A stretch of 27,380 nucleotides of DNA, from positions 1 to 27,380 of IMG/VR virus record IMGVR_UViG_3300042476_000210; one strand, written 5' to 3'. Below are positions 13,141 to 22,292 of the stretch, one piece after another (position 1 is the first letter of the stretch; each line of letters opens with the position of its first letter). Source of the stretch: a virus. Made by a program: the position numbers and the translations under genes. Under the pieces are notes generated by a model. The model was not told where the DNA came from. It saw only the letters and a list, made by a program, of their open reading frames with translations, and made no database searches.

Positions 13141-13809
13141 ATGCCATTTGACATAAACAAATTCCAAACTAATATCCGAGATTTTGGGTATATTGACAAC
13201 AATTCGTTCTCGGTCTTGGTCCAGACTCCAAAGGTTATGACTGGAGCCAGTCTCAGCAATCAAGGAACGCCAACTGCTGTTTATAAAATAGCAGAAAATA
13301 TGGAATTTAGAATAGATCAAGTAAAGGCTCCTGGTATATCTATTGTTACCACAGACATCAATAGATATGGTATCGGCCCAACACAGAAACAACCATTCAG
13401 CGCTCAGTTCCAAGAAATTAATATTTCCGTTCTGGGCGATCATTATTGTGAATTTTGGCAGTACTGGTATCAATGGACTAGAGCTGTGTTTCAGTTTAAC
13501 GGTTCAACAGCTGGAAATTGGGCTCCAAACTATACGGCTGAGTATAAAGAAAATTATTCTTCTACCATAATCATATTCATATACGACCATTATGGTAACA
13601 TCATCCAAAAAATAAACCTTTTCGAAGCCTTTCCAACAGCTATTAGAGAATTTCCTCTTTCTTGGGGGGATTCGAATCTCATGAAGATTAACGTACAAAT
13701 AGCTTACACTGAATACACAATAGAAAATTCGACTTTAGAGAAATCTAATCTAGAAGATAAAAACAGATCAGTAATGACAGGCTATACAAGAGAAACAATA
13801 TCAAGTTAA
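13141..13809 (+). CDS. Tail-tube-fold protein (gp19/gp54 family)
   Basis: 222 residues. The segments MEFRIDQVKAPGISIVTTDI, RYGIGPTQKQPF, INISVLGD...FWQYWYQW and the final block INLFEAFPTAIREFPLSWGD followed by IAYTEYTIE match the tail-tube fold shared by T4 gp19 (tube), gp54 (tube initiator) and gp48. The last block ('L-x-x-A-F-P-x-x-I...L-x-W') is the most recognisable. Length lies between gp19 (163) and gp54 (about 320). Location near the baseplate genes favours the gp54-type initiator. A GGA-containing site precedes the ATG by about 8 bases. Confidence 0.65.
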   Translation: MPFDINKFQTNIRDFGYIDNNSFSVLVQTPKVMTGASLSNQGTPTAVYKIAENMEFRIDQVKAPGISIVTTDINRYGIGPTQKQPFSAQFQEINISVLGDHYCEFWQYWYQWTRAVFQFNGSTAGNWAPNYTAEYKENYSSTIIIFIYDHYGNIIQKINLFEAFPTAIREFPLSWGDSNLMKINVQIAYTEYTIENSTLEKSNLEDKNRSVMTGYTRETISS

Positions 13810-13825
13810 TTATGGAGTTTAAATA

Positions 13826-14539
13826 ATGTCTAAGTTACCTAAGATTGATTACCCAGTTTATAAAATTAATATACCTTCTTTGAAAAAAGACTATCAATTT
13901 AGACCGTTTTTGGTCAAAGAAGAAAAACTATTGTTGATGGCTAAAGAAAGCGAAAACCCAGCGGACGTGCTTTCGGCTATTAAACAAATCGTAAACAACT
14001 GCTCTATTGATTCCAAGTTGGATATTAGCAAACTGGCTCTGTTTGATATTGAGTATATTTTCCTTAGATTAAGAGCTATCTCTGTTGATAATGTTATTAA
14101 AGCATCATACAAAGATTCAGAAGATAATAAAGTATACGATTTTGAAATTAATCTTGACGATGTTAAGGTCAAGTATCCAGAGAACCTTGATAACAATATT
14201 AAAATTACGCCTAAGTCTGGCGTTATAATGAAATATCCTTCCGCTGCATTATATGATGATGCAGACTTTTTGGCCTTAGACAAAGATTATATGTTTGAGT
14301 TGATTCTTCGTTGTATAGATTCTATCTATTTTGAAGAGCAGATTTTCGAGGCCAAAGATTATAAGAAGGAAGAACTGAACGAATTCTTAGAAAACCTTAA
14401 TATCAAGGTGTTCGAAAAGATCCAGGAATTCCTGTTGAATGTCCCTAAGATGGAATACAAGATTTTATATCAAAACGATCTGGGTCATGACAGAGAAATA
14501 GTTCTGACTTCGTTAAACGATTTTTTTACGTGGCGCTGA
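13826..14539 (+). CDS. gp26: Baseplate hub assembly protein gp26
   Basis: 237 residues (T4 gp26 is 208). The N-terminus (PKIDYPVYKINIPSLKK...YQFRPFLVKEEKLLLMAKES) is the characteristic start of T4-like gp26 proteins. A GGAG sequence 8 bases before the ATG fixes the start. In T4 gp26 belongs to the hub assembly pathway with gp51. The last codons run through a T7 tract (GAT TTT TTT ACG) and the gene overlaps the next ORF by 10 bases in the -1 frame, which is discussed as a possible programmed frameshift. Confidence 0.85.
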   Translation: MSKLPKIDYPVYKINIPSLKKDYQFRPFLVKEEKLLLMAKESENPADVLSAIKQIVNNCSIDSKLDISKLALFDIEYIFLRLRAISVDNVIKASYKDSEDNKVYDFEINLDDVKVKYPENLDNNIKITPKSGVIMKYPSAALYDDADFLALDKDYMFELILRCIDSIYFEEQIFEAKDYKKEELNEFLENLNIKVFEKIQEFLLNVPKMEYKILYQNDLGHDREIVLTSLNDFFTWR

Positions 14540-14544
14540 GCCAT
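14521..14544 (+). other. Candidate -1 ribosomal frameshift site at the gp26/gp51 overlap
   Basis: A run of seven T occupies 14521-14527 and reads, in gp26 frame, as T TTT TTT, a permissible -1 slippery heptamer. Two bases on, GTGGC (14530-14534) can pair with GCCAT (14540-14544) around a five-base loop. A slip here would continue into the downstream small ORF with no stop in between. The hairpin is short and close, so this is a candidate only. Confidence 0.4.
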
Positions 14545-14715
14545 ACTGATCTGGGTAATTATTACTCTACTATATTTTCGTTGGTTCAGCACCATAAATA
14601 TTCAATATCTGATGTAGAAAATCTTATACCATTTGAACGAGATATCTATGTGCAAATGTTGGTGAATTATATCAAAGAAGTAGAAGAAGCAAAAAGACAA
14701 CAAGCAAATAGGTAA
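14530..14715 (+). CDS. Small gp51-like hub assembly protein or frameshift extension of gp26
   Basis: Up to 61 residues from a GTG at 14530. The sequence (LGNYYSTIFSLVQHHKYSIS, then LIPFERDIYVQMLVNYIKEV) is strongly protein-like and matches, from memory, a small conserved ORF that follows gp26 in T4-like phages and is often labelled gp51. T4 gp51 is far longer (249). There is no Shine-Dalgarno sequence before the GTG, only the T7 run, so translation must be coupled to gp26 or reached by -1 frameshifting. In siphophages and many myophages a -1 frameshift product at this location, just before the tape-measure-like gene, is the tail assembly chaperone. Confidence 0.6.
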   Translation: MALSHTDLGNYYSTIFSLVQHHKYSISDVENLIPFERDIYVQMLVNYIKEVEEAKRQQANR

Positions 14716-14718
14716 GAA

Positions 14719-16737
14719 ATGGCAACGGCAGAATTAGCAGAAGTATCCAGAAGTATAAGATCAGCAATGGGAGAATCTGCTGGTCAATTCAGACAAGCTG
14801 CAAACGCTTCAGCAGCCAATCTTTCTAAAATAGTCAAAGATATTGCTACTACTTTTTCTGCACAAAGAAAAGATATTAACGACCTTCACAATAGTATTCA
14901 GGAAGGTCAATATGCTACAGAACAAACTAATGATAAGATAGATGGCCTAATCAGAATATTCCAAGAAACGGCCAGTATCCAAACAACTATGCAAGGTTAT
15001 CTAAGCGATATTTCTAAAAACATTAGAATATTGAATAGAAACGTTGAAAGTATGAATACCAACCTTTCCAATAATTTGGTTGGATCTGGCACTGGTAATA
15101 TTCTTAGTTCTCTTACTACTGGTTTAGGAAGCGTTGTTGAAAAAATCGGTGCCGCTGCAGTTGGTGGAGCAGTAGGTTATGTCGCTGGCGGCATGGGTGG
15201 CGGTGGTGGTGGAGCCACGGCAATGCAACCAAATGGTAGTTCCTCTGAAGCTATGTCATTTTTCCAGTCAAAAGGTTGGTCAAAAGAACAGTCAGCTGGT
15301 ATTGTTGGCAATCTTCAAGTGGAATCTGAGAATTTTTCTTCTGCTGTAATAAGCGGAAAGAAAAAGGGCGATGGAGGCACAGCTGTTGGTATAGCACAAT
15401 GGCATCCTGATAGGCAGGCAAGATTCCAACAAATAATGGGAAAACCATTAATTGGTTCTACATTCCAAGACCAACTTGCTTTCGTTGACTGGGAATTAAA
15501 AAATAGTGAAGCCAAAGCAGGCAATATTCTTAAAATGGCTAAATCTGCAGCTGATGCTGCTGCAAAGGTTGACGAATTTTATGAAAGATCTTCTGGCGAA
15601 CATAGATCAAAAAGAATAGCTAATGCAGAAAGACTAACAAGTTCTAAAGGCGGCGAAACTGCTACGCCAGTAACATCTGCAGCAACTACACCCTCAACAA
15701 CGCCAACTGCTACACCAGTTTCTAAGCCAGAAGCTGTACCTTCTGCTACTTCCCCAAGAACTGAAACAATTGGTAAAGAAGGCGGCCATGGCCCTATCAG
15801 TGGTGCTATGCATGAAGGACAAGCTCACGGAGAAAAAGTAGAAACTTCTGCTGCATTACCTTCTGGTGATATTGTTGCTCTTGGCCATGCTCTAGAAAAA
15901 ATGGGAATGAGAATTTCTGAACATCCTTCTTTTGGTGGCGTCGCAGGAGTTCATAAAGGTAGAGCCCATTATGAAGGAAGAGCGATTGATATTAATATTG
16001 GTAAGGGTAATACAGAAGCGACAAATCCTGTTCTCGGAGCAAAGTTTGATCATCTAGCTGATCAATTAACTAGACTCGGTTATAAGGTTTTCTGGAGAGA
16101 ATCTGGGCCATATGGCGCTGCTGGTCATAATGATCATCTACATGCTGAACTCAGAAAGGGCGGTGGAGAAGCTGTTCCAGACACATATCAAATAGCAGGA
16201 ACTCCAGAACAAAGAGCAGCACAGGGAGCAACTCCTTATGCAGCTACTCCATCAACAACTGCTCCTTCTGCAGCACCAATGGCTGCTCCTGTAGCAGAAC
16301 CAATACAGCAAGCGCCAATGACTACTGGTATGATGGGCGCTCCAATGGGTGGGGACATGACAGGACAGCTTATGGGAATGTTAGGCGGCTTTATACCTGG
16401 AGGGTTTGGTGGGATGATTGGAGGACTACTTCCAATGATAGCTTCAGCGATCTCTGCAGAATTAACTCCTTCTCCTTCTATGGCTTCTATGAATGCTAGA
16501 ACTGTAAGTCAGGCGGCTGTTCAGTCACAGGCAATGGAAGAATCTGCACAACAACAGACTGTAACTCCTACTAATACTCCTTCTATGACTGGAGGGGCAA
16601 GTCCAATGTCTGCTGCTGATAATTCAGGATACGCTTATAATACACCAGATGATATTGGTTGGCCAGATTGGGCTGCTATGATTGGCGGTAATCATTGGGA
16701 AGAAATGAAACACTATAAGAAGAATATGTGGGGATAA
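14719..16737 (+). CDS. Tail/hub protein with lysozyme-like and M15 peptidase-like domains
   Basis: 672 residues. Residues 1-120 are helical and coiled-coil-like, as in tape-measure or hub proteins. A Gly-rich link (145-170) leads to a phage-tail-lysozyme-like domain at about 176-305 (FFQSKGWSKEQSAGIVGNLQ, E202/E204, then GTAVGIAQWHPDRQARF). After a Thr/Pro/Ala linker (310-350), residues 380-480 show a peptidase M15-like signature: H417-Y-E-G-R-A-I-D424 and H473-L-H475. A second Pro/Ala/Met-rich linker and a hydrophobic Gly stretch (545-580) follow, then a Trp-rich C-terminus. It would cut both glycan and peptide parts of peptidoglycan during DNA entry, taking the place of the lysozyme missing from the spike. 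The gene is the last of the rightward operon and ends at a strong terminator. Confidence 0.75.
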   Translation: MATAELAEVSRSIRSAMGESAGQFRQAANASAANLSKIVKDIATTFSAQRKDINDLHNSIQEGQYATEQTNDKIDGLIRIFQETASIQTTMQGYLSDISKNIRILNRNVESMNTNLSNNLVGSGTGNILSSLTTGLGSVVEKIGAAAVGGAVGYVAGGMGGGGGGATAMQPNGSSSEAMSFFQSKGWSKEQSAGIVGNLQVESENFSSAVISGKKKGDGGTAVGIAQWHPDRQARFQQIMGKPLIGSTFQDQLAFVDWELKNSEAKAGNILKMAKSAADAAAKVDEFYERSSGEHRSKRIANAERLTSSKGGETATPVTSAATTPSTTPTATPVSKPEAVPSATSPRTETIGKEGGHGPISGAMHEGQAHGEKVETSAALPSGDIVALGHALEKMGMRISEHPSFGGVAGVHKGRAHYEGRAIDINIGKGNTEATNPVLGAKFDHLADQLTRLGYKVFWRESGPYGAAGHNDHLHAELRKGGGEAVPDTYQIAGTPEQRAAQGATPYAATPSTTAPSAAPMAAPVAEPIQQAPMTTGMMGAPMGGDMTGQLMGMLGGFIPGGFGGMIGGLLPMIASAISAELTPSPSMASMNARTVSQAAVQSQAMEESAQQQTVTPTNTPSMTGGASPMSAADNSGYAYNTPDDIGWPDWAAMIGGNHWEEMKHYKKNMWG

Positions 16738-20971: not shown

Positions 20972-21048
20972 TGGCGGTCCCCGAAGGATTCGAACCCTCG
21001 ACCCACGGAGTAGAAATCCGTTGCTCTATCCAGCTGAGCTAGGGGACC
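20972..21048 (-). tRNA. trnR-UCU: tRNA-Arg (anticodon UCU)
   Basis: Complete cloverleaf on the minus strand: 7-bp acceptor GGTCCCC/GGGGACC, D-arm GCTC...GAGC, anticodon stem ACGGA/TCCGT with loop TTTCTAC (anticodon TCT), T-arm with GTTCGAATC, discriminator G and encoded CCA. It reads AGA (and AGG) codons, which dominate arginine coding in the virion genes here. It has its own near-consensus promoter. Confidence 0.96.
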
Positions 21049-21086: not shown

Positions 21087-21834
21087 ATGGACATTTCTTT
21101 TCACGCTTTTCGTTTCGACGTAGTAAAGAAAAAGTCTTTCTCCATCCATATATACTGGTACTAGGAGTTAGGCTCTTTTGATTCATCTCTTGATCGCTAA
21201 TTAGATGATTATGTATCTTAACCTTCTTTTCAGTCAATGGAACGAATTGCATAAGAGCTTCGCCCATGGGGATCTTCATCAAATACTGTTCGCCCTGTTT
21301 TGCTTTCTTAAAAGCCATAAACACATTAGTGAACGAAACATCATGAAAAGTAATAGACCCAGGAATAATACGAGCATCGATGTTTTCTAAAGACCATTCA
21401 GTCCCAAAACAAATAAATGGAACACGCTCTTTGGTGGTGATCAGCCAAGGACTAGTCAACTTGAACATATGATAATCTATAAAACCAGGATTAAACATAC
21501 TATCCGGAGGAATCTTTGGCTCTGGGCCAGTCGTATAGTTGTAAGAGAAAGTTTCGTTTCTTACATCAATAGCAAAATCAGCCCAAGACTCTAGAATGAA
21601 TCCACGTTTATATAAGTCCAAGAATCCAATACAAGATCTAACGCTTCTGAAAGAATTATTGTAAATGTTTCCTAACGGATTATATGCATACTCATGACGA
21701 GTCTTAGGAACATTATCCATCCATTCGGGTTTAGCTTTATAAGAATTAACAATTGGCGTTGTCTTATAAACACTAGTATTAGATGTGAAACAATCAACAT
21801 CTAAAACAGAACTTCTATGAAAAAATGAAAACAT
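21073..21834 (-). CDS. Conserved phage protein of unknown function (253 aa)
   Basis: 253 residues from the ATG at 21834, with GGAG 6 bases upstream (the longer frame begins with TTG at 21846 and is less likely). The N-terminus (LDVDCFTSNTSVYKTTPIVN, then KAKPEWMDNVPKT), the segment SCIGFLDLYKRGFILESWAD and the later CFGTEWSLENIDARIIPGSI recall a family of unknown function that recurs in T4-like phages and some bacteria (possibly DUF6065; not certain). It appears cytosolic, with no TM or signal segment. It is the first gene after the tmRNA and carries the tRNA promoter -35 in its 3' end. Confidence 0.6.
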   Translation of the reverse strand: MFSFFHRSSVLDVDCFTSNTSVYKTTPIVNSYKAKPEWMDNVPKTRHEYAYNPLGNIYNNSFRSVRSCIGFLDLYKRGFILESWADFAIDVRNETFSYNYTTGPEPKIPPDSMFNPGFIDYHMFKLTSPWLITTKERVPFICFGTEWSLENIDARIIPGSITFHDVSFTNVFMAFKKAKQGEQYLMKIPMGEALMQFVPLTEKKVKIHNHLISDQEMNQKSLTPSTSIYGWRKTFSLLRRNEKREKKCPFDFS

Positions 21835-21899
21835 AATATACTCCAATTAGAAAATGCAACATGCTTCTGTTTCTAGGTGCAGTTGCCAAACCCAATGGA

Positions 21900-21947
21900 T
21901 TATGCCGCTAGAGCATAAACTCCAAATGATGCATCATTATCGTTTGC
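21900..21947 (-). other. tmRNA proteolysis-tag reading frame
   Basis: From the resume codon GCA at 21947 the frame reads ANDNDASFGVYALAA followed by TAA at 21902-21900. The opening ANDN and ending ALAA are those of bacterial ssrA tags, with LAA as the ClpXP degron. The sequence GTAGAT just before the GCA corresponds to the resume-setting element. The tag is longer than the 10-residue E. coli tag. Confidence 0.95.
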
Positions 21948-22011
21948 ATCTACGTTTCGCCTTTGGTCTCCTTACGACCTTACTGAATCCTGTCGAACCT
22001 GAATCGCCCCC

Positions 22012-22097
22012 ATCAAAGATACATAGTTGCAGGTAAAAGGCAACTGCATAATCGGGTGTGTGTATCCTTTTTCATCCACTTCCGATCTATGTATCCA
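22012..22097 (-). other. Intervening segment removed from pre-tmRNA
   Basis: An 86-base segment joins the CCA end to the mature 5' end of the coding piece. It contains the 9-bp closing helix GATACATAG/CTATGTATC and an internal stem GTTGC/GCAAC. RNase P and tRNA 3'-processing enzymes of the host would be expected to cut at its two ends. Confidence 0.8.
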
Positions 22098-22165
22098 TGG
22101 TGGAGGCGGTGGGAATCGCACCCACGTCCAAGAAACCTATTTTTCGTCTCTCAACGACCTCGGCA
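22098..22165 (-). other. tmRNA acceptor piece (5' end approximate)
   Basis: This part carries the T-arm and the 3' acceptor strand with CCA at 22100-22098. Upstream in the RNA, GCCGA near 22160 can pair with TTGGC in the 3' part of the coding piece, which would hold the two mature pieces together. The T-loop is TGCGATT, with G where most tRNAs have U55. Confidence 0.75.
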
Positions 22166-22172
22166 AACCTAT

Positions 22173-22292
22173 TTATTGTGTTTGTATCTGATTTTCAAAC
22201 TCCTCAATCCAAGGAGCAGTTACTTTATCTTCTTTAATTGCACGGATTTGACGTGCGGTCTCTGAAGAGACATTCGGCGAATTTAGCGTCAT
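22173..22292 (-). CDS. Overlapping alternative-frame ORF (39 aa)
   Basis: An ATG at 22292 opens 39 codons in a frame shifted relative to the lipoprotein gene. The product begins MTLNSPNVSSETARQI and ends in the protein-like segment KEDKVTAPWIEEFENQIQTQ, which extends 61 bases beyond the lipoprotein stop, right up to the tmRNA. AGGG touches the ATG, so initiation would be weak or coupled. Alternatively a frameshift joins it to the lipoprotein. The protein-like composition of the non-overlapping part is the reason to list it. Confidence 0.4.
   Translation of the reverse strand: MTLNSPNVSSETARQIRAIKEDKVTAPWIEEFENQIQTQ

Follow-up and report, generated by a model that had tools for sequence, protein, structure and literature searches.

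A programmed -1 ribosomal frameshift proposed for the gp26-family tail assembly chaperone gene of a T4-like phage

In the IMG/VR virus record IMGVR_UViG_3300042476_000210, whose positions 1 to 27,380 constitute the 27,380-nt window analysed herein, a gp26-family gene on the plus strand (13826-14539) runs into a small gp51-like open frame, and the first-pass annotation of this DNA had raised the possibility that a programmed -1 frameshift fuses the two. This proposal was upheld: with a probability of roughly 0.94, the locus holds a tail assembly chaperone (TAC) gene subject to programmed -1 ribosomal frameshifting. The heptamer, the frame, the downstream stem, the predicted fold, the homology and the gene order were established by comparison, and from these we infer the slippage itself. 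The proposed frameshift is strongly supported by an invariant heptamer in phase with gp26, a fixed -1 relation between the frames, and the lack of any start codon for the second frame in a third of the relatives. Hereafter, the short product of the gp26-family gene (237 amino acids) is referred to as TAC-N, the part read in the -1 frame as TAC-C, and the predicted fusion as TAC-NC.

The putative slippery heptamer T_TTT_TTT occupies positions 14521-14527 of the plus strand, has the X_XXY_YYZ form in the gp26 phase, and lies 9 nt upstream of the gp26 stop codon (14537-14539), the 3' end of the gene reading ...AAC GAT TTT TTT ACG TGG CGC TGA; the T7 run pointed out in the first reading was thus found as described. 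IMG/VR relatives of 54-100% identity all retained the heptamer, one of them (L052) as T TTT TTC, and placed TAC-C in frame -1 wherever this could be scored. In a more distant set (36-80% identity), the heptamer was present in 76 of 76 relatives, as TTTTTTC in 39 and as TTTTTTT in 37. When both sets were reduced to 98 non-redundant viral clusters, T_TTT_TT(T/C) was found at the same place in every cluster, which answers the search for conserved slippery runs advised at the outset; some relatives carry a T8 run. The codon preceding the Phe pair (Asp, Ser, Asn or Ala) ended in T in 98/98 clusters, and the first Phe codon was TTT in all 98, while TTT accounted for 69% of the other Phe codons of these genes. 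The joint chance of this codon pattern, about 1e-33, presumes independent clusters, which these are not, and serves as a guide only; the conservation of the heptamer is far beyond chance.

Heptamers of this type were also found 3-6 nt upstream of the stop of gp26 in annotated phages including members of Kyanoviridae, Straboviridae and Pootjesviridae. They occur in the cyanophages S-PM2, S-SM2, S-TIM4 and ACG-2014b, in Pseudomonas pf16 and Milchi, Stenotrophomonas DLP6, Cronobacter LPCS28, Aeromonas Aeh1, and Vibrio TCU-VP04-AIR2 and D491s, as well as in Agrobacterium Atu_ph04 and Prochlorococcus P-SSM7; Rhizobium RL2RES carries T_TTT_TTG. A joined coding sequence across the heptamer was annotated in none of the heptamer-bearing phage records examined.

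The frame entered after the putative slippage (TAC-C, 14527-14715, plus strand) was in frame -1 relative to gp26 in the window and in 76 of the 76 distant relatives scored, and was conserved as a protein, in line with its earlier description as conserved-looking. It matched phrog_634, labelled "baseplate hub assembly catalyst", with an E value of 2.6e-25 over positions 58-117 of 121. Only the second half of this profile was covered because T4 gp51 consists of a gp26-type domain fused to that C-terminal piece; indeed, the last 49 amino acids of T4 gp51 matched phrog_150 and phrog_634 at the same place as TAC-C. The open frame is listed from a GTG (14530-14532) to 14715, and gene finders would call this GTG as the start, which it probably is not. 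The best anti-Shine-Dalgarno duplex before it was +0.3 kcal/mol, compared with -5.9 for gp26 and -3.7 for the next gene, and the first-pass remark that this -1 frame opens with a GTG lacking a Shine-Dalgarno sequence was accordingly accurate. Moreover, 15 of the 34 close clusters carry CTT, CTG, GTT or TTT at this position, and the -1 frame held no ATG, GTG or TTG up to +48 in 32 of the 98 clusters. In Prochlorococcus phage P-SSM7 (L100, 2295-2390), gp51 has been annotated as a protein of 31 amino acids because the -1 frame offers no start before codon 43; this truncated gp51 is an annotation artefact of the frameshift.

Downstream of the heptamer, a conserved 9-bp stem closes a 38-nt loop (z = -4.4 in the window), its 5' arm (14535-14543, plus strand), which spans the stop codon of gp26, starting 7 nt downstream of the heptamer, and its 3' arm lying at 14582-14590. 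Folding also placed a less conserved outer helix of 4 bp around it (14530-14533 with 14592-14595). Over 34 aligned relatives, the stem positions were paired in 87% of cells, as against 25-46% when the partner was slid; changes on both sides were seen in 16 cells, compared with 6.5 expected from shuffles (0/500), and RNAalifold recovered the stem core independently. At least 8 of the 9 pairs formed in 49 of the 56 clusters with a window-like layout. The stem was mostly absent from relatives whose stop codon follows 3 nt after the heptamer, where little structure was seen (median z -1.1), and no downstream structure was found in S-SM2, S-TIM4 and ACG-2014b; the conserved stem is a trait of the clade of the window and not a general one. 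The short hairpin first noted here thus stood as to the presence of a structure and not as to its form: the GGC/GCC hairpin is one part of the longer stem and was for this reason discarded as the conserved element.

The assignment of gp26 to the tail assembly chaperones came from several directions. The protein matched PF12322 (E 6.6e-56; 189.9 bits against a gathering score of 24.5) and, in a profile search, phrog_150. Its AlphaFold2 model had a predicted local distance difference test score (pLDDT) of 88.9, and comparison of residues 1-89 with solved structures gave 3fgx (Z 8.2), the HK97 tail assembly chaperone 2ob9 (Z 7.1, over 85 residues) and YqbN (3klu, Z 6.6), with the next match at 4.0. 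Foldseek alone yielded no significant PDB match for the model, and no relative of gp26 turned up when solved structures were searched by sequence. The model thus provides moderate evidence that the N-terminal domain of gp26 resembles the HK97 chaperone. Taken with this predicted fold, the homology between the small frame and the C-terminal extension of T4 gp51 identifies gp26 as a tail assembly chaperone.

The gene order was also that expected for a tail chaperone. A tail-tube-like gene (13141-13809, plus strand; phrog_45, E 1.2e-22; PF23849) directly precedes gp26, and a tape-measure-like gene with a tail lysozyme domain and its own Shine-Dalgarno sequence (14719-16737, plus strand; phrog_9570, E 1.1e-27; PF18013, E 3.5e-26) begins 3 nt past the end of TAC-C. 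Since both profile matches of the latter are confined to the lysozyme part, its tape-measure role rests mainly on position. Together with the TAC-like predicted fold, this order agrees with the G/GT-like arrangement that the first-pass annotation had proposed. In the tape-measure-like protein, a second region with motifs of H-x-D and H-x-H type (GRAHYEGRAIDINIG and HNDHLHAEL) was seen by eye and resembles a peptidoglycan peptidase; a Pfam search of the protein reported the lysozyme domain only and nothing at this region.

By analogy with lambda, a G/GT-like use of the locus, with gp26 as TAC-N and gp26 plus gp51 as TAC-NC, is strongly supported. The majority of ribosomes would stop at 14537-14539 to give TAC-N, and on a minority the two Phe tRNAs would re-pair one base back on T_TTT_TTT, presumably assisted by the stem 7 nt downstream. 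The slipped ribosomes would translate TAC-C in the -1 frame as far as 14712, producing a predicted TAC-NC of 296 amino acids. As in lambda G/GT, TAC-C may tether the chaperone to the product of the following gene, the tape measure protein, and TAC-N and TAC-NC at a fixed ratio may support assembly of the tail tube to the correct length.

Several observations weigh against frameshifting or soften its support. The heptamer also encodes a conserved Phe-Phe pair, so that part of its conservation reflects amino-acid constraint; the arms of the stem are coding as well, which ties the covariation partly to codons; fold matches of Z 7-8 fall within reach of unrelated folds; and in about two thirds of the relatives, the -1 frame does contain a codon that could serve as a start. 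A rival reading is separate translation, in which ribosomes start at GTG 14530 (a 10-nt overlap with the gp26 stop) or re-start after that stop to yield a free gp51-like protein of 61 amino acids. Such a junction exists in nature, as two relatives (L033 and L036) bear a TAATG stop-start and the Ackermannviridae and Vibrio K475 have TAATG or TAATT in place of the heptamer. In the window, however, the GTG lacks a Shine-Dalgarno sequence, and across the 98 clusters it is the heptamer, not the start codon, that is kept. Separate initiation is hard to reconcile with the 32 clusters devoid of a start codon up to +48 and with the 31 of the 98 in which a -1 stop codon lies directly 5' of the heptamer; the late first start of P-SSM7 also speaks against it. 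In T4, moreover, both parts form one continuous protein, gp51. We therefore consider separate translation very unlikely.

Still less probable is transcriptional slippage, by which RNA polymerase would produce transcripts with a U gained or lost at the T7 run, which a normal ribosome would then read through. The T7, or in some relatives T8, is indeed a homopolymer, but one third of the clusters have T6C, which is probably too short for the polymerase and makes a good -1 heptamer. The phase X_XXY_YYZ was kept without exception, and a conserved stem spaced 7 nt away is consistent with stimulation of the ribosome. Programmed -1 ribosomal frameshifting remained the reading best suited to the window.

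Relatives with a Shine-Dalgarno-led start and no slippery run, named beforehand as evidence against frameshifting, were not found generally, but exceptions exist. The heptamer was absent at the gp26 end in the Ackermannviridae LIMEstone1, Menlow and Se_AO1 (L090, L097 and L098) and in Vibrio K475 (L089), in which the frame for TAC-C starts at the gp26 stop, the junction reading TAATG, or TAATT in Menlow and Se_AO1. These junctions suggest stop-start coupling, possibly with an AUU start. L033 and L036 retained the heptamer, lost the 5' arm of the stem and gained the TAATG. Tentatively, and at somewhat less than even odds, a single family may have taken at least three routes to TAC-C: a -1 frameshift in the window and in the majority of T4-like groups, duplication of the full gene in T4, and a free TAC-C made by stop-start coupling, sometimes from an AUU, in the Ackermannviridae and Vibrio K475, with the stem enclosing the gp26 stop setting the frameshift rate in the clade of the window.

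The first-pass annotation did not recall such an arrangement being described for T4-type gp26/gp51, which proved mistaken. A tail assembly chaperone frameshift in T4-like phages was reportedly the subject of Vladimirov, Gautam and Davidson 2022 (Virology 566:9-15), and its abstract reportedly describes the frameshift as conserved in several T4-like groups, with T4 using genes 26 and 51. The window shares with that system the gp26/gp51 protein family and the poly-T signal, as far as the citing papers describe it. According to these papers, TAC-N genes of T4-like phages contain poly-T sequences recognised as -1 frameshift signals, and some T4-like phages do not frameshift but carry separate short and long TAC genes (PMC10885494, 2024, for the latter). 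Myoviruses of the Vandenendeviridae and Andersonviridae, as described in PMC12846349, likewise have a conserved poly-T -1 frameshift at the end of TAC-N, although their motif is GTTTTT and they form a different phage group. The frameshift of the window is thus already known in kind from T4-like relatives, whereas the downstream stem and the stop-start variants of the Ackermannviridae may be undescribed details.

With T4 itself, the window shares the family, in that genes 26 and 51 are both PF12322 and gp51 joins a gp26-type domain to the same C-terminal piece in one gene; T4 differs in having the two genes separate and on opposite strands, where the window carries a single gene bearing a slippery site. 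One PF12322 copy was found in the window, itself a fragment of the genome; four large related contigs and the complete S-SM2 likewise had one each, and T4 has two. With lambda G/GT and other siphovirus tail chaperones, the window shares a predicted N-terminal fold of gp26 that resembles the HK97 chaperone, but gp26 has no detectable sequence similarity to the solved chaperones. The heptamer of lambda differs from T_TTT_TTT.

Elsewhere in the window, a permuted tmRNA of alphaproteobacterial type lies on the minus strand at 21809-22190 (Rfam tmRNA_permuted, 94.4 bits; alpha_tmRNA, 74.7 bits), with the tag ANDNDASFGVYALAA assigned by ARAGORN, and its type hints at an alphaproteobacterial host for the phage. 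The small open reading frames at 22027-22265, largely over the tmRNA, are probably spurious. Near it lies a tRNA-Arg gene (anticodon tct; 20972-21048, minus strand).

The tail chaperone is thereby firmly grounded for a large and mostly uncultured set of T4-like phages. In public records, its long form is either broken up or missing, as with the 31-residue gp51 of P-SSM7 and several records that omit it, and the C-terminal part of a tail assembly chaperone would be a better label than "baseplate hub assembly catalyst". A directly testable candidate stimulator is available in the conserved stem, and if the variants with a free TAC-C are real, covalent fusion would not be needed in every case.
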